64,000 nt of DNA from Rhodobacter sp. (GTDB lineage: Bacteria > Pseudomonadota > Alphaproteobacteria > Rhodobacterales > Rhodobacteraceae): contig JAIXUH010000002.1 of NCBI GenBank assembly GCA_027484145.1, positions 744,001 to 808,000 of the forward strand. Direction: 5' to 3'. The notes beneath the pieces are model-generated. The model saw only the letters and a program-made list of their open reading frames with translations. It did no database searches and had not been told where the DNA came from. This document shows, one piece after another, positions 29,518-38,080 of the stretch (position 1 is the stretch's first letter; each line of letters starts with the position of its first letter). Made by a program: the position numbers and the translations under genes.

Positions 29518-30013
29518 AAAATCCCTGAAAATCCGGTTGCTTGTCGAAAGTCTTTTGACTTCGGCGAGCACCGCATTTGGGTTGTGAGCGTTCCGCGAAC
29601 AGCCGCTGCAAATCGATGACTCCATTGGCGTTTCATGTCGGAGATGATCCTTCGGACCTGAAGGCGTGCCCCCGGCAGCCTTGTCAGGCGGCTAGATCGG
29701 GAAGTGCACCGCGATTGACCCGAAGGTCTGGCGTTCCCCGCAAAGCGGAATCCGCAGCTTTCTTCAGCGCGGCGGTTCGCCCAGCTGTGGCTTGACCGGC
29801 CCGGTTCCGCTGCACCGGCTGTGCAATTCTCCCGGCAGCTTCGTTGTTTCCGACGCCCGTACCGTCGCCATGGCCGAGCGCCCGGGCGGTATCGGTCGGG
29901 CACGCCATAAACCGGTGCGCTTGTCATGCAAAAGCCCGGCGCAGGGGCCGGGCTTTTGTCGTGCTGTGGGTGGCGGGCCTATCGGGCCGCCGAGAAGTCA
30001 GAGGCCCTGAAGA
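29518..30013. other. About 500 bp without a convincing gene
   Basis: Between tRNA-Asn and the repeat gene. Short open frames exist on both strands (the best is 29684-29908, minus, 74 codons) but none has a recognisable domain. The only clear element is the hairpin at 29930-29957. A tRNA 3' end is a common integration site, but I see no integrase or direct repeat of the tRNA tail here. Confidence 0.5.
29930..29957 (-). terminator. Strong bidirectional hairpin terminator downstream of the repeat gene
   Basis: An 11 bp stem AAAAGCCCGGC/GCCGGGCTTTT with a 6-base loop, 57 bp beyond the stop of the acidic repeat gene. T-runs on both strands allow termination in either direction. Confidence 0.8.
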
Positions 30014-32014
30014 TCAGGTGTTGCCCTCGTCGCCTTCATCATCCTCGTCGCCTTCGTTGCCTTCGTCGTTTTCGTCGCCTTCATCGTTTTCGTCGTTCTC
30101 GTCGTCCTCGTCACCTTCGGTGCCTTCGTTCAACTCGTTGCCTTCGTCGCTTTCGTCGGACTCGTCGCCTTCATCGGTTTCGTCGCCTTCGTCGGACTCG
30201 TCGCTCTCATCGTGCTCGTCGTCCTCGTCCGATTCATCGTTCTCGTCACCCTCATCGCCTTCGTCGGCTTCATCGCCTTCGTCGGCTTCGTCGCCTTCGT
30301 CGGCTTCATCGCCTTCGTCGCCTTCGTCGCCTTCGTCGTTCTCGTCACCCAGCACGCTATGGGCGGTGGCACCTTCGTCGAGTTCGTTGCCTTCGTCGCC
30401 TTCGTTGCCCTGGTTGTCCTCGTCACCTTCGTTGGACTCGTTGCTTTCGTCGTCTTCGTCGCCTTCGTCGCCCTCATCGCCTTCGTTGGCTTCGTCGCCT
30501 TCGTCGAGTTCGTCAGCTTCGTCGTTTTCGTTGCCTTCGTCGGCTTCGTCGCCTTCGTCGGCTTCGTCACCTTCGTCGCCTTCGTCGCCTTCATCGCCCT
30601 CGTCGTTGCCGACAAGATCGAAATCGACAAGGACCTCGTCCGACTCGTTGCCTTCGTCGTTTTCGTTGCCTTCGTCGTTTTCGTTGCCTTCGTTGGCTTC
30701 GTTGCCTTCGTCGCCTTCGTCGCCTTCGTTGTTTTCGTTGCCTTCGTCGTCGCCGGCTTCAATGCCACCTTCATCGGCAACTTCGTCGCCTTCGTCACCC
30801 TCGTTGGTTTCGTCGCCTTCGTCGCCTTCGGTGCCTTCGTCCGCCTCATCGCCTTCGTCACCCTCGTCGCCTTCAAGGCCAGAGTTGATCAGGTCTTCAG
30901 CCAGAAGCGCTTCGTTGGATTCGTTGCCTTCGTCGGCTTCGTCACTCTCGTCGTTTTCGTCGGACTCGTCGCCCTCGTCGCCTTCGTCGCCTTCGTCATT
31001 CTCAAGGCCTTCGTCAGCTTCGTCGCCTTCGTCGCTCTCGTCGTTCTCGTCGCCTTCGTTGTCTTCGTCGCCTTCGTCGCCTTCGGCGTTCTCGTCGCCT
31101 TCGTTGCTTTCGTTATCCTCGTCGCCTTCGTCGCCGTCGTTGGTTTCGTCGTTCTCGTCGCCTTCGTTGCCTTCGTCGGCTTCGTCGTTCTCGTCGTTTT
31201 CGTTGGCTTCGTTGGATTCGTTGCCTTCGTCGTTTTCGTCGCCTTCGTTGCTCTCGTTGCCTTCGTCGGCACCAAGTTCAACGCCCCCCTCATCGAAGAC
31301 TTCGTTGCCTTCGTCGCCTTCGTCGTTCTCGTCGCCTTCGTCGTTCTCAAGGCCCTCATCGGCCTCGTTGTTCTCGTCGCCTTCGTCGCTTTCGTTCAGT
31401 TCGTCGCTTTCATCGCCCTCGTTGCCTTCGTCATCTTCGTTGTCGAGGAACAGAACGCCTTCGTCGCCTTCGTTGTTCTCGTTGCCCTCATCGCCCTCGT
31501 CATCGGACAATTGAACGGAACCACTGGTCTCATTGCCTTCGTTGCCTTCGTCTTCCTCGTCGCCTTCGTCGCCTTCGTCGTTCTCGTTGCCTTCGTCGAT
31601 TTCGTCGTTCTCATCGCCTTCGTCGGCTTCGTCGCCTTCGTCGCCTTCGTCGGTCTCATCACCCTCGTCGGATTCGTCGTCTTCGTTGCCTTCGTCGTTC
31701 TCGTCGCTCTCGTCGCCCTCGTCGAATTCGTTGCCTTCGTCGTTTTCGTCGCCTTCGTCGCCTTCGTCGCTTTCGTCGTCTTCGTTGTTTTCGTCGTTTT
31801 CGTTGTCTTCGTTGCCTTCGTCGCCTTCGTTGCCTTCGTTGTCTTCGTTGTCTTCGTCGGCTTCGTTGCCCTCATCGCCCTCATCATTGTCACTCGGGTT
31901 GGGCGTAGGGAAAAAGCTGATGGCGGCCATCAGGCCGGGGGCATTCATCATGCGGGTGATGCCAGCCTCTTCCAGCAAGGCGGCAAGGCTGGTGGCGGAT
32001 ACGAAATTCGTCAC
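30014..32014 (-). CDS. Hyperacidic tripeptide-repeat protein, (D/N)-E-X repeats, about 666 aa
   Basis: I do not recognise a family. The N-terminal ~40 residues are ordinary and partly hydrophobic (SATSLAALLEEAGITRMMNA; LMAAISFF). From about residue 42 to the stop the protein is a near-strict tripeptide array: position 1 Asp or Asn, position 2 Glu, position 3 mostly Gly but also Asn, Ser, Ala, Asp, Thr. Short non-repeat inserts occur (SGSVQLS, VLFLD, ALLAEDLINSGLEG, VLVDFDLVG, ATAHSVLG). I see no Lys, Arg, Cys, Trp or Tyr after residue 22. Start: GTG 32014, with TGGAG seven bases upstream. Frame support: third-base changes (GAA/GAG, GAC/GAT) keep Glu and Asp, whereas on the opposite strand they would change residues. 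Such a chain should be disordered and bind cations. It lies 448 bp downstream of a type I secretion operon on the same strand. Role unknown. Confidence 0.75.
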   Translation of the reverse strand: MTNFVSATSLAALLEEAGITRMMNAPGLMAAISFFPTPNPSDNDEGDEGNEADEDNEDNEGNEGDEGNEDNENDENNEDDESDEGDEGDENDEGNEFDEGDESDENDEGNEDDESDEGDETDEGDEGDEADEGDENDEIDEGNENDEGDEGDEEDEGNEGNETSGSVQLSDDEGDEGNENNEGDEGVLFLDNEDDEGNEGDESDELNESDEGDENNEADEGLENDEGDENDEGDEGNEVFDEGGVELGADEGNESNEGDENDEGNESNEANENDENDEADEGNEGDENDETNDGDEGDEDNESNEGDENAEGDEGDEDNEGDENDESDEGDEADEGLENDEGDEGDEGDESDENDESDEADEGNESNEALLAEDLINSGLEGDEGDEGDEADEGTEGDEGDETNEGDEGDEVADEGGIEAGDDEGNENNEGDEGDEGNEANEGNENDEGNENDEGNESDEVLVDFDLVGNDEGDEGDEGDEGDEADEGDEADEGNENDEADELDEGDEANEGDEGDEGDEDDESNESNEGDEDNQGNEGDEGNELDEGATAHSVLGDENDEGDEGDEGDEADEGDEADEGDEADEGDEGDENDESDEDDEHDESDESDEGDETDEGDESDESDEGNELNEGTEGDEDDENDENDEGDENDEGNEGDEDDEGDEGNT
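30017..31896 (-). repeat. 9-bp-period low-complexity array encoding the (D/N)EX tripeptide
   Basis: Degenerate tandem copies of GAC-GAA-GGC (plus-strand view TTCGTC-GCC), nearly 1.9 kb long, interrupted by a handful of unique segments. The variation sits at codon 3 of each unit (Gly/Asn/Ser/Ala/Asp) and at the Asp/Asn position. Long stretches are similar enough for slippage, so length is likely variable among strains and hard to assemble from short reads. Confidence 0.9.
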
Positions 32015-32462
32015 GTTGATCTCCAAATTGTGCTTAACCGGCCGCATTATGCGCGGCGCCGGCATGACTGAACGACTGCTCGGGAACGGGTCAGGGGGCC
32101 TGATGCGCAACTTTGGCGCACACCGGGCCACTGGCTGCCCATGTCTTCAAACCCGGCCAAAAGGCCGGCAGCGATGCTTGATCAGGTTCGGCCAAAAGTG
32201 CACAAGCGGCACGACCGGAGGTCTCTTAACGGTGCCGTGATGGTGTGTGTGCGAAAGTTACCTGTCAAGCTGTCTGGGTGGCGAAAGTACATATAAGTTG
32301 ATCGAAGTCGCCTTGCTGCAACAGCATTTGGTATGTGCCGCGGCGCCATACTCTTGCCATCAATCAGGCTGATACTATTTTCCCCCTGAGTCTTTGGCCC
32401 GAATTTGAGGCTGGCTGGCCACAGAAATTCCGCCGCTTGACAGGGGTAGGTTCGACCGCAGT
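32015..32462. other. 448 bp upstream region of the repeat gene, no gene seen
   Basis: Between the repeat gene start and the HlyD-type adaptor stop. Less GC-rich than its surroundings over 32220-32400. It should hold the promoter of the repeat gene. I see no clear -35/-10 pair, and no hairpin strong enough to call a terminator after the secretion operon. Confidence 0.4.
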
Positions 32463-33758
32463 TTAGCCGTCGCGCAGCGCCCGCGTCAGATAATCCGACA
32501 CGGGTCGCAGCACATAATCCAGCGGGGTGCGATCCTCGGTGGTGATAAAGGCTTCGACGGGCATGCCCGGCACCAACTCCCCCGCATCGAGCAGCGCCAG
32601 ATGGCTGGCATCCAGCGAAATCGTCGCCTCGTAATAGGTGCCGCGACTGGTGGAATCCAGAAAGGCATCCGGCGAGACGCGGTCGATCCTGCCAAGGATC
32701 AATGGCTGGCTGCGGCGGTTAAAGGCCAGAAACTTCAGCGACGCCTCTTGCCCGGCAAAGACCTGATCGACATCGCCCGCCGCGATGCGGATCACCGCCA
32801 CCACCGGCACGTCGGTCGGCACCACAGACAGCAGAGGGCTGGCCGCCACCACAACCGACCGAAGGCCCATGACCCGACTGTCATGCACACGCCCGCTGAT
32901 CGGGCTGCGGATTTCGGTCTTGGACAGCGCATCCAGCAGGCTGGCGCGTTTTTCCTGATGCCGGGTGCGTTCGGGGCGCAGCTTGTTCAGCTCGGTCGCC
33001 GCCGCCTCGCGCGCAGTGGGGCGCAGCTTGTGGCGCGCCAGATCCAGTTCCGACAGACGGCCGCGCAATTCCGCCGCCCGTGCCGTCAGCCGGGCAATAT
33101 CGCCCGCCGTCTGAATCCTGTCCTTTTCCAACGCAAAAAGTTGCGCCGTCGTGCTCAGCCCTTTGTCGGCCAGCGACTGTATCTGCGTCAATTCGCGGTC
33201 AACGAAACCGGCGCGGGCTTGCTGTGCCGCCAGTTCGGCATCATTGCCAAGGATCTGGTCATTGACCTGCCGGATCTGTTCCCCGATCAGCCGCCATTCA
33301 ACATCCATCGCGGCAAGCTGGTTGGCAAGTTGGCGTTGCTGCCGGTCCAGCAATGCGCGAATCTCGGGGTGCCTGTCTGCCATTTCCGTCATGAACGGAT
33401 CGAGCCGCAGGGTCGCGCCATCGTCGATCACCGCTTCCAGCCGCGCGATGTTGGCAAGGGTTTCCAGCAACTCGCCTTCGGTCACCATCAGGTCTGACCG
33501 GACTTGCCGGTCATCCAGACGCAGCAGAACCTGCCCCGCGTGCACAACATCACCATTGCGCGCAAGGATCTCGGTCACGACACCGCCGACCGGATGCTGC
33601 ACGGCTGTGCTTTCCGTTGACACTTCGATGGTCCCGGTTCCCAGCACCGCGCCAGAAATCGTGACGTTCGCGCCCCAGAAACCAATCGCAGCAACCAAAG
33701 CGACAATCGTTCCCAACCCAAGCGCCAAGGGAAACCCGTTTTGCCACGTCCGGCGCAT
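32463..33758 (-). CDS. Type I secretion periplasmic adaptor (HlyD/PrtE family membrane fusion protein)
   Basis: 431 aa. N-terminal membrane anchor (PLALGLGTIVALVAAIGFWGA, residues 10-30), lipoyl half-motif (VQHPVGGVVTEILARNGD, about 52-70), long coiled-coil hairpin (about 90-270), second lipoyl half (KTEIRSPISGRVHD), and the C-terminal beta-barrel with the family stretch LVPGMPVEAFI. It bridges the inner-membrane ABC exporter and an outer-membrane TolC, which is not in the window. Its ATG overlaps the last base of the exporter gene stop, so the two are coupled. Confidence 0.93.
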   Translation of the reverse strand: MRRTWQNGFPLALGLGTIVALVAAIGFWGANVTISGAVLGTGTIEVSTESTAVQHPVGGVVTEILARNGDVVHAGQVLLRLDDRQVRSDLMVTEGELLETLANIARLEAVIDDGATLRLDPFMTEMADRHPEIRALLDRQQRQLANQLAAMDVEWRLIGEQIRQVNDQILGNDAELAAQQARAGFVDRELTQIQSLADKGLSTTAQLFALEKDRIQTAGDIARLTARAAELRGRLSELDLARHKLRPTAREAAATELNKLRPERTRHQEKRASLLDALSKTEIRSPISGRVHDSRVMGLRSVVVAASPLLSVVPTDVPVVAVIRIAAGDVDQVFAGQEASLKFLAFNRRSQPLILGRIDRVSPDAFLDSTSRGTYYEATISLDASHLALLDAGELVPGMPVEAFITTEDRTPLDYVLRPVSDYLTRALRDG

Positions 33759-35554
33759 CAGGTTCCGCCCCCGCGGATCAGGGGTGAAACCTTGGCAGTC
33801 CGGACCGGAGCCGTAGGCGACGGGGCAGAATTTGCCGATGCCGTTTGGGCCGAAGGCGCGACCGCCTTCACAGCGGACTGTGGTTTGACAAGCTTCAGCT
33901 TGCCATTTTCCAGCGACAGGCGGGCGGTGGCATAGGCCAGTTTCAGCGGATCGCGCGAAAAGACCAACAGCAGGTGCCCTTTGGCCTTTTTCGCAAGCAT
34001 CTCATCAGCCAGAGGGCCGCGCAGCAATCCGCGCAGCGCATCATCCGCTTCGTCAATGATCAGAACTTCGGGCTGGTGATACAGGGCACGCGCCAAGGCA
34101 AGGCGGTGCCGCTCCCCGCGCGAAAAGCCGCTGGCATTGCGGTCAAGCCGGGTCTGATAGCCATCGGGCATGGCCAGAATACGGTCATGCAGGGCGACCA
34201 GCCGGCACACCTCCATGACGCGCTCCCGATCTGGGCCGGGCACCATGCGGGTGATGTTCTCTTCGATCGACACAGACAGAAACGACGGGGCTTCTGGCAC
34301 ATAGCCGAAGATGCGCGTGCTTTCCGCTTCGCTGAGCCGGGCCGTGTTCATGCCATTGTAAAGCACGCAACCGCTGCTGCGGCGCCAGATCCCCAACAGG
34401 GTTTCCGCCAGAACCGTCTTGCCCGCCCCGCTTGCCCCCGTAATCTCAACCACCTGCCCGGCCGCAATGTTCAGCGACACGCCGCGCAAGACGGGTGTTG
34501 CATCCAGCCCGGTCCGCACCGAGATGTTGACAAGCGACAGGCGCGCCCGTTCAGGCACGGTGTGATCGGCGTAAAGATCATCGTCGGCCGTTGTCTTGGC
34601 CTCAAGGATACGCTTCAGACCACGCCAGTTCTGCAGGGCCACACGCATGGCCGGGAGGTCTTCGAAGAAGCTGTCGGCAATGGACAGACAGCGCACGGCA
34701 ACAAAGGTGCAGGCCACCATCGCGCCTACGGTCATTTCGCCACGCAGCGCGAACCATGCCCCGACCGCAAGGACGGCATAATGCACCAGTTGCTTGGATT
34801 GTCGGGAAAAGGTGTCGAACCATCCGGTGAAATCGCGCAAGGTAATGGCTTGGTCACGCGACTGACGCCGCGCCTGCAACCAGCGCGCCTTGAACGGGGC
34901 CGTCATCTCTTGCGTGCGCAGCACGTCGCGCGACGACACCAGCATGTGCTTGAGTTCGCCAATCCGCCCCGTCGCGGCGCGGGCCTCGTCCTCCAGATCG
35001 CGGGCAAAGACAATCCGCAAGAGGACGTCAGCCAAAAGCAAGGCCATGCCGCCGATCAACACCCATCCGATCGTGGGATGCAGGATGAAGATGAACGCCA
35101 CGAACATCGGCAACCAGAAGAAATCCATCATCGCCAGCAAGGCACCCGAATGGAAAAAGCTGCGCAGGCCATCGACTTCGTCCAGCCCGGAGGTTGGCTT
35201 GACCGCGCCGCGCTGCAAAAACTCTTCGCGTGGCGTGCGCTGAAAAATCTGCGTCTCGATGCGTTCCTGAAACTGCGCGCCGAAACGCGCAATGATCCGG
35301 CGCCGGGCATGATCGATCAGGCCAGAGGCCACAACCAGCAGCACCAGCATGAAAAACAGCGCGACGAGGGTTTCTTCGGACCGCGATGGCAGCACGCGGT
35401 CATAGACCAAAATCATGAACAAGGGCCCGGCCAGGCGCAGCAGGCTAAGGACAAAGCTCATGCCAAAGGTGGCCAGCAGCAGGCCCCGGCCTTTGCCGCC
35501 CGTTCGCGGGCTTTGGGGCGCATCTGCAAGGCGCGGGTCGTCTTCGGCCATCAT
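33758..35554 (-). CDS. Type I secretion ABC permease/ATPase (PrtD family) with degenerate nucleotide-binding motifs
   Basis: About 598 aa. Six-helix exporter membrane domain (LAGPLFMILVYDRVLPSRS; LVVASGLIDHARRRI), then an ABC domain with intact Walker A (TGASGAGKT) and a Walker B-like LIIDEADDAL. Other catalytic elements are altered: Q-loop reads YVPEAP (Glu for Gln), the signature reads FSRGERHRLAL instead of LSGGQ, and the H-loop segment is LLVFSRDPLK without the switch histidine. No C39 peptidase domain. The start is uncertain: ATG 35554 has GGGA about ten bases upstream; TTG 35590 and GTG 35587 are alternatives. It pairs with the downstream adaptor. Confidence 0.9.
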   Translation of the reverse strand: MMAEDDPRLADAPQSPRTGGKGRGLLLATFGMSFVLSLLRLAGPLFMILVYDRVLPSRSEETLVALFFMLVLLVVASGLIDHARRRIIARFGAQFQERIETQIFQRTPREEFLQRGAVKPTSGLDEVDGLRSFFHSGALLAMMDFFWLPMFVAFIFILHPTIGWVLIGGMALLLADVLLRIVFARDLEDEARAATGRIGELKHMLVSSRDVLRTQEMTAPFKARWLQARRQSRDQAITLRDFTGWFDTFSRQSKQLVHYAVLAVGAWFALRGEMTVGAMVACTFVAVRCLSIADSFFEDLPAMRVALQNWRGLKRILEAKTTADDDLYADHTVPERARLSLVNISVRTGLDATPVLRGVSLNIAAGQVVEITGASGAGKTVLAETLLGIWRRSSGCVLYNGMNTARLSEAESTRIFGYVPEAPSFLSVSIEENITRMVPGPDRERVMEVCRLVALHDRILAMPDGYQTRLDRNASGFSRGERHRLALARALYHQPEVLIIDEADDALRGLLRGPLADEMLAKKAKGHLLLVFSRDPLKLAYATARLSLENGKLKLVKPQSAVKAVAPSAQTASANSAPSPTAPVRTAKVSPLIRGGGT

Positions 35555-35686
35555 TCCTGACGCATCCCATTCGCTGCCGGCAGGCACCAATTAAGGCAAT
35601 GAATTGTGCCATAACGATGGCACAACTTGCCGGACAGACCGATGTTTTCGGATGTCACGCGCCGCTGACAATGCGGCGACATGCGA

Positions 35687-36328
35687 TCACCCCTTCTTCA
35701 CTTGGTTCAAGTTGAAGCTGATGATGACACGGTTCGCCTTGTCGCCCGGTTCGGTCGACATGTTCGTATCCACGGCATGATAAAGCCAGCTTGGGAAAAT
35801 CAGCATCCGGCCCGGTTCGGGCGTAAAGCGGATCTTGGTCCAACAATCCTTCAGCCGCTTGGCGTTGGCGGCATATTTTGGCTGGTTCATCAGATTGGCC
35901 GTGCGCGGCTCAACAAATTCGATGTTTCCGCACTTTTCGGGGGCCTGAATGTAATAGACCCCGCTCCACAGACAGCCCGGATGCACATGGGCGCGGTTCG
36001 AACCGCCCGGCGGGTTGATGATCGACCACATCGTCCCGATCTTGATCGTATGGTCGCGCGAATACCCCAACTCTTCCGACATCTTGTCGGTGGCCATGCC
36101 GATCTGGGCCACAAGCGGGGCATAATCGGATGATTTATGCAGGTCGTTGTGGCTGTGCCATCCCCCAAGTTCGGGAATGTTCGACCGGGTGATTCCCTTC
36201 AGATCGCGGGCGCGCTCTCGGTAGATCATGTCCAGAAGATTGGCGTTAAGCTCTTGTGGATCCGTCAAATCGATCTGGAACACCAAGGTCGGGAAGTAAG
36301 ACTTCTTCGAGAAAACCATCGAGCTCAT
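35687..36328 (-). CDS. 2-oxoglutarate/Fe(II)-dependent oxygenase, TIGR02466-type
   Basis: 213 aa. Double-stranded beta-helix pattern with likely iron ligands in AHVHPGCLWSGVYY (His114/His116) and WLYHAV (His184), and the 2-oxoglutarate-binding Arg200 in NRVIISFN. N-terminal TLVFQIDL and the WHSHNDLH block match the TIGR02466 family of putative oxygenases, whose substrates are unknown. It lies 132 bp upstream of the exporter gene on the same strand, so it is probably part of the secretion unit and may hydroxylate an exported protein. Divergent from the HExxH gene pair. Confidence 0.85.
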   Translation of the reverse strand: MSSMVFSKKSYFPTLVFQIDLTDPQELNANLLDMIYRERARDLKGITRSNIPELGGWHSHNDLHKSSDYAPLVAQIGMATDKMSEELGYSRDHTIKIGTMWSIINPPGGSNRAHVHPGCLWSGVYYIQAPEKCGNIEFVEPRTANLMNQPKYAANAKRLKDCWTKIRFTPEPGRMLIFPSWLYHAVDTNMSTEPGDKANRVIISFNLNQVKKG

Positions 36329-36491
36329 TTACAGCATACCCATGCATGTCGCTACATCTTGAGGCAGATACGGCAGCCAACCGCATCATCATGACGGTCG
36401 GGGTAGCACACCGCTTTCCATATTTCAATTCTACATTGCACAGCACAACTTTGTTAGGGTGCGACGATGCCCTCCCGCCCCAGAGGCCCAG

Positions 36492-37322
36492 ATGCAAACG
36501 GTCCCATGCCGAATTCACCGCAGTGCTGCCCAACGGATCGCCACCTTGATCTGTGCCTTGTCCGTAGCAGGACCGCTGTCGGCACAGGCGGCGGATGAGC
36601 CGCCCTTTGGTGATACGGCGGGAACGGTTTTCGATATCGTGCGGCGTGATGACCCATCGGCCTTTGTCTGTCTGGAACCCGCCGGGCGCGGGGAACGCCA
36701 GATTTGGGACAAGCGGGTTGACGGGGAACCTGTTGTCAGCGCGCATCTTTTCGTCGCGCGCTATAGCGATGGCGCTGTGATCGAAATCCGGGTCAACCCC
36801 GAATTTGACACGGACGCGGCCGTAGCACAGGCGCGGCGGCATGCCTTTCCTTTGGGTCAGTTGCCCACAACGCTGCGGCAAGGCATCAATGCGTTCAGCA
36901 TTCACGGCGGGCGACAGGGGTTTCACGCCGGAACAGGGCAGATCGTGGTTTACACCGAAACCTCGGACCATCGGGAAAGCTATGCCCACCTGGAAGAATC
37001 GCTGTTTCACGAAGCGGTGCATGCATCATGGGATCAGACGCACCGCCTTGCCCCAGACTGGGTTGCAGCCCAGCAGGCTGACGGCGGCTTTCTGACCCGC
37101 TATGGTCAAGACAGCCCTGATCGCGAAGATCTGGCCGAAACTGCGCTTTTCGCCTTTGCCATTCTGCACCATCCCGACCGATTCCCCCCGGCGGATACCA
37201 AGGCAACGCTGGCGGCCGTTCCGCATCGTATCGCCTATATTGAAGGGTTGTTGCCACGCGGGCAGCCCCTGATTCTTGCAACAGACCCGAGTCCCGCCTG
37301 CGCAGACGGGGCACTGCGGTGA
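36492..37322 (+). CDS. Exported HExxH zinc-metallopeptidase-like protein
   Basis: 276 aa. Signal peptide at residues 1-33 (RIATLICALSVAGPLSAQA, cleavage after AQA). HEAVH at residues 173-177, followed about 35 residues later by EDLAE (212-216), the order expected for gluzincin-type peptidases where a downstream Glu is the third zinc ligand. Otherwise unrecognised. Start at ATG 36492 with AGAGG five bases upstream; an in-frame GTG at 36459 is possible but would lengthen the signal peptide. The stop overlaps the next gene (GTGA). Confidence 0.7.
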   Translation: MQTVPCRIHRSAAQRIATLICALSVAGPLSAQAADEPPFGDTAGTVFDIVRRDDPSAFVCLEPAGRGERQIWDKRVDGEPVVSAHLFVARYSDGAVIEIRVNPEFDTDAAVAQARRHAFPLGQLPTTLRQGINAFSIHGGRQGFHAGTGQIVVYTETSDHRESYAHLEESLFHEAVHASWDQTHRLAPDWVAAQQADGGFLTRYGQDSPDREDLAETALFAFAILHHPDRFPPADTKATLAAVPHRIAYIEGLLPRGQPLILATDPSPACADGALR

Positions 37323-38080
37323 CAGAAGCGGTGCAGCAAGATCGCCTATCCGATTGGCTGGCGTTGCATGGGCTGTCGGCGGCAACCTGTCTTGCCCTTC
37401 TGGATGCGGCCCTTCCGCAAACCGATACCGCCGTGTCAGATCGCGGACCGCCGCCAGTGGACCTACTGTCCAGCCTGTCGGCCAGCGATGCCTGGGCGAA
37501 GGTATCGGAAGCTGTGGCAAGCATCCTTCCCGACGTCGCCCCCCGTGTCCTGCAGCAGTGCGGGACCTGTTTTGACCCACCGCAAGGGCGGTCCTTTACC
37601 CTGCATGATGGCGGCAACGGGGTGCCGCTGGTGGCCTGCGTCTGGTCGGGCCGCCCCCATGATCTGCTGACGATGGCGCACGAATTTGGCCACGCCGCCC
37701 AAATCATGGCCAGCCCGCCCGGCATGGCCATGACACCGGTGATGCGCGAAACCTGCGCCTTTCTGGCCGAGGCGGCGTTGGTATCCCATCTGCAAGCGGG
37801 TCCTGCAAAAGACCTTGCGGCGGTCTTGCAGTCCCTGTGGCAGGCTGAAACCCTGCGGCTTCTGGGGCGGTCAGCCCGCACCCTGCGACAGGCGCTGAGC
37901 CACCCCGACGCCGCCTATGACTATGGCTGGAATTACCCCATTGCACGGCGTCTGGCCTTGCGACTGTGGCAAGACCAGCGTGCGGCCATTCCGGCGCTGT
38001 TTGCCGGTGGCCTGACCCTTTCGCAGGTGCTGGGGCATTTCGCCACCGAAGATAGAAACCTTCGGGTCCCTCAGCGATAA
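37319..38080 (+). CDS. HExxH protein resembling a truncated M3 oligoendopeptidase
   Basis: 253 aa with no signal peptide, so cytoplasmic. AHEFGHAAQIM puts HEFGH at residues 121-125. A glutamate 19 residues (Glu144, VMRETCAF) or 26 residues (Glu151) after the motif could be the third zinc ligand, as in M3 peptidases (oligoendopeptidase F), which are normally about 600 aa. Only the catalytic half seems present. GTG start coupled to the preceding exported HExxH gene by a 4 bp overlap. Activity is inferred from motifs only. Confidence 0.65.
   Translation: MTEAVQQDRLSDWLALHGLSAATCLALLDAALPQTDTAVSDRGPPPVDLLSSLSASDAWAKVSEAVASILPDVAPRVLQQCGTCFDPPQGRSFTLHDGGNGVPLVACVWSGRPHDLLTMAHEFGHAAQIMASPPGMAMTPVMRETCAFLAEAALVSHLQAGPAKDLAAVLQSLWQAETLRLLGRSARTLRQALSHPDAAYDYGWNYPIARRLALRLWQDQRAAIPALFAGGLTLSQVLGHFATEDRNLRVPQR

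Follow-up and report, generated by a model that had tools for sequence, protein, structure and literature searches.

A giant (Asp/Asn)-Glu-X repeat protein encoded beside a 2OG-Fe(II) oxygenase and type I export genes in Rhodobacter sp.

The stretch of Rhodobacter sp. DNA analysed here (64,000 nucleotides; hereafter, the window) carries a gene for a protein built almost entirely from an (Asp/Asn)-Glu-X tripeptide repeat. Upstream of this gene, and on the same strand, lie the genes for an HlyD-family adaptor, an ABC exporter and a 2OG-Fe(II) oxygenase, while two HExxH proteins (hereafter, ZnS and ZnM3) are encoded on the opposite strand. The positions of these features are summarized in Table 1.

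Table 1. Features of the repeat protein locus, with the evidence on which each assignment is based.
Feature	Position	Strand	Basis
(D/N)-E-X repeat protein gene	30014..32014	minus	GTG start 32014, stop 30014, 666 aa
Leader-like N-terminus, 43 residues, with (I/V/L)-S-F element	31886..32014	minus	leader alignment
Array, 181 units, interrupted by short inserts	30017..31885	minus	unit count
GGAG, Shine-Dalgarno-like, 6 bases 5' of GTG	32021..32024	minus	sequence
Terminator-like hairpin 3' of stop	29926..29957 (about)	minus	folding, z -2.88
HlyD-family type I adaptor	32463..33758	minus	TIGR01843
ABC exporter, type I secretion (PrtD-like)	33758..35590	minus	Pfam ABC_tran + ABC_membrane
2OG-Fe(II) oxygenase, TIGR02466/PF13759, proposed array modifier	35687..36328	minus	Pfam, NCBIfam, alignment, model
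HExxH protein ZnS; start uncertain	36489..37322	plus	alignments A4, A6
HExxH protein ZnM3, distantly M3-peptidase-like	37319..38080	plus	alignment A3
RTX/FG-GAP protein, 933 aa	38117-40918		HemolysinCabind match

The original prediction of a giant repeat following a short N-terminus is borne out by the unit count. In-register (Asp/Asn)-Glu-X units account for 543 of the 623 residues counted from the first unit onward, the longest uninterrupted run comprises 40 units, and the inserts are irregular in position and sequence. The first position is Asp in 134 units and Asn in 47, the second is Glu in 181 of 181, and the third is Gly in 90, Asn in 25, Ser in 20, Ala in 17 and Asp in 13, with other residues in the rest. 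Asp or Glu make up 348 of the 666 residues, and the residue bias is as it had been described: Lys, Cys, Trp and Tyr are absent and the single Arg sits in the leader. A 33-base pattern spanning four units has seven matches in the window, against a maximum of zero in 100 shuffles. The silent exchanges expected in this frame are likewise present, with columns 2, 4 and 5 of the nine-base unit free of variation across the 181 units and the silent columns variable (column 3, C in 160 and T in 21; column 6, A in 129 and G in 52). The proposed GTG start with its Shine-Dalgarno sequence agrees both with the GGAG element and with an alignment to the MT start of two relatives; an alternative, longer ORF begins at GTG 32131. 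Of the strong terminator that had been suggested, the hairpin itself stands (-23.5 kcal/mol by folding), but it is absent from the list returned by a consensus terminator scan.

No recognised family accommodates the window repeat protein, again as predicted. A Pfam search at E 0.1 returned no family, the HemolysinCabind nonapeptide of RTX proteins included, and the NCBIfam matches were restricted to collagen-like adhesins, far under their cut-offs. Neither library gave a match to a RiPP precursor family; the leader-like N-terminus bears an element common to relatives. A 27-base match on contig C38, considered as a possible second array copy in the same genome, falls in flagellar-type genes with no array and is ascribed to chance.

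The HlyD adaptor scores 296.2 bits against TIGR01843 (cut-off 208.65). The ABC exporter remains below the PrtD cut-off (TIGR01842, 326.6 bits versus 510.15) and reaches those of Pfam ABC_tran and ABC_membrane. In ZnS the HExxH motif is invariant in both alignments, and a hydrophobic N-terminus suggests that the protein is secreted; it belongs to no Pfam or NCBIfam family. Two PDB sequence matches to ZnS are at chance level, and a resemblance of its model to M1 peptidases was set aside (pLDDT 65.7, best match E 0.018). ZnM3 has a sub-threshold M3 match (TIGR02290, E 1.6e-4) and no sequence match in the PDB at E 1. Neither HExxH protein matched an alphaKG-HExxH peptide hydroxylase at E 0.1 in Pfam or NCBIfam, libraries that may contain no such model. 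The RTX/FG-GAP gene lies two genes from the oxygenase, with no match in most of the relatives' stretches and a weak one in L017; its product could be either a passenger of that type I secretion system (hereafter, T1SS) or independent of it.

The oxygenase is assigned to TIGR02466 with 234.3 bits (cut-off 62.5) and to PF13759 with 84.6 (cut-off 27), the latter being the sole Pfam family to pass its cut-off. Residues H114, H116, H184 and R200 are conserved in all 21 sequences aligned and, judged from the fold, are presumably those that bind iron and 2OG. The predicted structure (pLDDT 85.5) is matched best in the PDB by uncharacterised rhodobacterial proteins (PDB codes: 3bvc, E 1.2e-11; 2rg4, E 8.8e-11), followed by PolD and the protein hydroxylase PHD2 with TM scores of about 0.4–0.6. 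More distant relatives occur in two plasmid records (36–44% identity), one of which was inspected and has no array-like neighbour in its annotation, and TIGR02466-like genes are found in 167 phage records, mostly of cyanophages and all below 60% identity. A literature search by title and start of abstract, outside of which most subscription journals lie, returned no substrate for TIGR02466/PF13759. In another clade, TIGR02466-type matches in two genomes (G733 and G555; loci L222 and L223) lie near a very large autotransporter-like ORF, and both loci have in common an ORF with the sequence SYQSGRLYLVG near the match; other clades of TIGR02466 may thus also have secreted protein partners.

The oxygenase alignment was used to scan a genome collection, which gave 64 pattern-matching stretches. 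Relatives of the oxygenase are encoded in 22 of these, 19 at an identity of at least 54% and three at 32–33%. An array ORF is present in the fetched stretch for 15 of the 19 closer relatives, and for a sixteenth (L038) the array is found elsewhere in its genome. The 15 loci originate from Rhodobacteraceae (Marinovum, Tropicibacter, Lentibacter, Fuscovulum, Falsiruegeria and others), from Mesorhizobium sp. L-8-3 and from metagenome-assembled genomes, of which four are acidobacterial, one gammaproteobacterial and one alphaproteobacterial. A genome probe detected no array for L031 (the same genome as G457) and L041, and the three distant bacterial relatives have none in the stretch or by genome probe. 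In Jannaschia formosa (L042, 10019-10477), the oxygenase frame appears by eye to continue into sequence resembling a transposase, and the 20 kb around it showed no array.

A sample of 394 genomes of the family was searched with a 60-residue array probe (E 1e-3) and with the oxygenase (E 1e-40). The probe matched 16 genomes, the oxygenase 19 and both 12 (Fisher p 3.5e-15). Arrays were confirmed by reading in 11 of the 16 probe genomes, and the oxygenase is present in 11 of these 11 versus eight of the 383 others (p 1e-16). Among the remaining five, the oxygenase occurs in G292 and is absent from the other four. For the probe matches in G225, G292, G450 and G461, the loci read lack any run of four units. 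The match in G167 consists of 11 consecutive (ADE)-type units within an unrelated-looking protein, which we take to resemble mitofilin, in a genome without the oxygenase; if runs of four alone were counted, G167 would become a twelfth array genome, one lacking the oxygenase. One oxygenase genome missed by the probe (G248) has a short NEG array in the ORF adjoining the oxygenase. No array was found in seven of the 19 oxygenase genomes of this sample (G082, G197, G292, G297, G389, G394 and G457); G197 is 78% and G297 75% complete, and G292 looks decayed.

Across 385 genomes of the class, the probe matched the window's own genome and two places of low identity (G486 and G636), where the stretches read contain no run of three units. 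Four further genomes of the class pass a looser oxygenase profile (A5), two of them measured at 42% and 34% identity, and have no array in the 17–19 kb read. In viral contigs, none of the best 80 of 101 oxygenase relatives (29–41% identity) has a run of four units in the flanking DNA fetched. Six other T1SS loci with related HlyD/ABC pairs (L018–L023) contain no array in 18–19 kb and no match to the oxygenase, HExxH or RTX references. In a quick oxygenase tree of 48 sequences, comprising 10 of the 80 viral entries and with three sequences of unclear state uncounted, the presence of an array requires four changes, compared to a mean of 14.8 for shuffled labels, and none of 500 shuffles was as low; deep branches of this tree are weak, it includes long branches, and near-copies among the sequences bias it towards clustering. 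In six loci (L033, L034, L036, L039, L040 and L111) array and oxygenase adjoin on a single strand, separated by little or no sequence, and the oxygenase gene lies apart from the array in G332 (L106, L104 and L105) and G186 (L112 and L113).

When runs of three or more units are counted, the 32 array ORFs listed, some of them cut by contig ends, contain 5,435 units. Asp occupies the first position in 3,218 units and Asn in 2,217, and the third is most often Gly (3,348), Asp (638) or Asn (580). The longest array-bearing ORF has 2,465 residues, and up to 127 units run on without spacers. The first ORF of L108 has an all-Asn array, and all-Asp arrays occur in L033, L034, L039, L040 and L098. Gly stands at the third position of every unit in one relative, L108 (51 of 51 units). 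Gly in every third place could indicate a triple helix of Gly-(Asp/Asn)-Glu triplets like that of bacterial collagen, and Pfam Collagen is matched in L108 (E 1e-20) and L111 (E 9e-14), in addition to the sub-cut-off NCBIfam matches of the window protein. This fold is nevertheless very improbable as a general explanation, as the window array has Gly in just half of its units and no Pfam collagen match at E 0.1.

For the cleanest pair of relatives (L030 and L107; 475 aligned codons, 3 gaps), dS is 1.23 and dN 0.17, a ratio of 0.14, and four other comparisons of relatives give 0.15–0.27; protein alignment of repeats lowers dN, so that a register-shift control is the safer evidence. In this control, carried out on the one pair L030/L107 with shifts of one to four units either way, the first position (Asp or Asn) is identical in 81% of 140 pairs in register, compared to 53–61% when shifted, and synonymous Glu codons are identical in 60% compared to 47–56%. 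The order of Asp and Asn has therefore been kept although silent sites are almost saturated, and the array is under purifying selection in relatives. The check for such selection that had been proposed thus upholds a polyanion read in this frame. Several other frames are also open across the array, as might be seen for a DNA repeat with a chance open frame or for a gene read differently, but that explanation is scarcely credible given that the columns free to vary are the silent ones of this frame, that dN/dS is low, and that leader and frame recur in relatives. Conservation of another frame, which had been named as a ground for abandoning the prediction, was not seen; frameshifts in relatives' arrays, another such ground, amount to one local case, in Mesorhizobium (L032, 6226-7686), where the frame seems disturbed and then restored through either a sequencing error or compensating indels.

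The loci fall into types that differ in the surroundings of the array. Type A, represented by the window and ten other genomes, has the ABC exporter, HlyD adaptor, oxygenase and array together. Two family genomes found by an HlyD search (L026, strain EL53, and L028, Pseudoponticoccus marisrubri; counted once) have the same six genes as the window, with array ORFs of 1,041 residues (946 when counted from the MT of the leader) and of 1,065 residues. The (I/V/L)-S-F element precedes the array in nine of the ten type A leaders read (eight of nine besides the window) and is absent from L107; the leader of L030 is cut by a contig end. Besides the window, L026, L028, L029, L030 and L032 encode ZnS, and L035 has a fragment of it. 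That Falsiruegeria locus (L035, 7799-10622) has its oxygenase divided between two frames and an array ORF of 304 residues, compared to 1,060 in its near relative Tropicibacter (L027), either through decay or through collapse of the assembly.

Type B comprises 11 array ORFs from five genomes (G020, G206, G332, G184 and G186), ten of which have GGMP or GGAP before the array and ten a conserved Cys-containing C-terminus. Proteins with a C39 motif are encoded in L102, L103, L110, L113 and L117, confirmed by Pfam C39 for L110; the G332 stretches showed no such protein. Genes for ZnS occur in L103, L106, L110, L113, L116, L117 and L119 and are absent from L102. In L102 (7564-10895), L103 (6751-9788), L110 (9533-14159) and L113 (3681-8427), the C39-motif membrane protein is accompanied by a second membrane protein and an HlyD-like protein. 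The C39 ORFs are without a Walker A motif and no ORF with ABC-ATPase motifs was seen in the L102, L103 and L110 stretches; either this exporter works without an ATPase of its own, or the ATPase is encoded elsewhere.

The leader ends of type B, the nearby C39 peptidase-domain proteins and the HExxH proteins of the locus are all features that a multi-core RiPP precursor could have, in which the chain would be modified and then cut by the HExxH proteins, or by C39 in type B, into small bioactive peptides. Alpha-ketoglutarate-dependent enzymes do hydroxylate strings of residues in some RiPPs (PMC12636437). Such a precursor is improbable here, as up to 127 three-residue units follow one another with no spacers between them and the inserts of the window array are irregularly placed and irregular in sequence.

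Judged by eye, the array is also found after a lipoprotein-like N-terminus (the acidobacterial arrays), after a signal-like N-terminus and before a long C-terminal part (L036), in one protein with RTX-like repeats at its end (L037 and L098), and as NEG runs in proteins with a common 'DLDGDGVE' region (L108 and L120). Leaders, C-termini and apparent secretion routes thus differ between lineages, and array and oxygenase are what they have in common. The array is associated with this oxygenase clade and, in type A, also with the export genes.

Highly acidic chains bind cations without any modification, and the protein could conceivably be a plain, disordered, RTX-like secreted cation binder, with the oxygenase acting on something else that travels along by chance. 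The RTX/FG-GAP gene nearby and the proteins that combine array and RTX repeats would fit such an unmodified passenger. We consider it unlikely, since the association persists across different export genes and flanking domains, and the window array has no Pfam RTX match. Moreover, in G020 a single oxygenase match accompanies four array genes, each on a contig of its own, as expected for a relation of substrates to their enzyme.

The reading that we favour, and regard as probable, is that the locus produces a polyanion for secretion, the repeats of which serve as substrate for the hydroxylase encoded beside it, with type I export of its own and cation binding outside the cell. That the array is the substrate is suggested because the pair persists while leaders, tails and export genes change. 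In this scheme the repeat protein would be produced in the cytoplasm, where the 2OG-Fe(II) oxygenase may act on the repeats, most likely by hydroxylating Asp and Asn side chains. The occurrence of both residues at the first position fits enzymes such as ASPH and FIH, known protein hydroxylases described as accepting both (PMC4543633). As Glu is the only invariant residue, Asp and Asn need not be the site of modification, and since all-Asn and all-Asp arrays exist alongside an invariant Glu, modification of Glu is also possible. Synteny points to the ABC/HlyD pair as the exporter of the chain, and the two HExxH proteins may process the chain or its leader. After export, carboxylates would be present on about half of the residues of the chain, together with hydroxyls, and its chemistry would suit an extended, multivalent binder of cations (Ca2+, Fe3+) with a role at the surface or in the matrix. 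The earlier interpretation is as a whole partly supported; what it overlooked is that the protein is a member of a larger family associated with one clade of 2OG-Fe(II) oxygenases, and this association suggests that the chain is modified and not simply acidic.

A broader proposal, held tentatively and with rather less confidence than the scheme for the window, is that these proteins constitute a class of giant polyanions of ribosomal origin, hitherto undescribed, and an acidic analogue of collagen. Its members, with ORFs of up to about 2,400 residues, would be hydroxylated along their length by a dedicated TIGR02466 clade, keep a conserved Asp/Asn order, use several export routes in several phyla and act as multivalent metal binders outside the cell. 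A literature search outside of which most subscription journals lie found no description of the array-oxygenase pair, and none of the repeat or of hydroxylated acidic repeats among the matches listed. The pair provides a testable substrate for an oxygenase clade of so far unassigned function and sets apart, as a family, very acidic repeat proteins that have maturation and export genes of their own. Hydroxylation, if it occurs, would make the chains dense hydroxy-carboxylate polymers of natural origin, which would be of interest in the fields of metal binding, biofilm matrix, mineralisation and materials; the 'tripeptide repeat plus hydroxylase' principle of collagen would then have been realised a second time.

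No family tested covers array and partner together, and the system resembles several known ones in part. Like RTX proteins of type I secretion, the repeat protein is acidic, built from repeats and encoded beside ABC/HlyD genes, but it is the neighbouring RTX/FG-GAP protein, and not the repeat protein, that has HemolysinCabind. RiPP clusters with Asp/Asn/Gln hydroxylases also group a leader-like N-terminus with oxygenase, export and protease-like genes; they differ in their short core, compared to array ORFs of up to 2,465 residues, and in the precursor families that the window repeat protein does not match. The animal enzymes ASPH and FIH are alike in accepting Asp and Asn (PMC4543633) and in the 2OG superfamily fold (PHD2 is among the structural matches), and they belong to another Pfam family, the window oxygenase passing PF13759 only. 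Collagen and bacterial collagen-like proteins also have a long tripeptide repeat, and the Gly-X-Y repeat of collagen is hydroxylated at many residues by a 2OG oxygenase (PMC4543633). The pairing of a tripeptide repeat and a 2OG hydroxylase is in principle known from collagen; the array differs in being acidic instead of Pro-rich, in having Gly in half of the window units, and in its partnership with a PF13759-type oxygenase.
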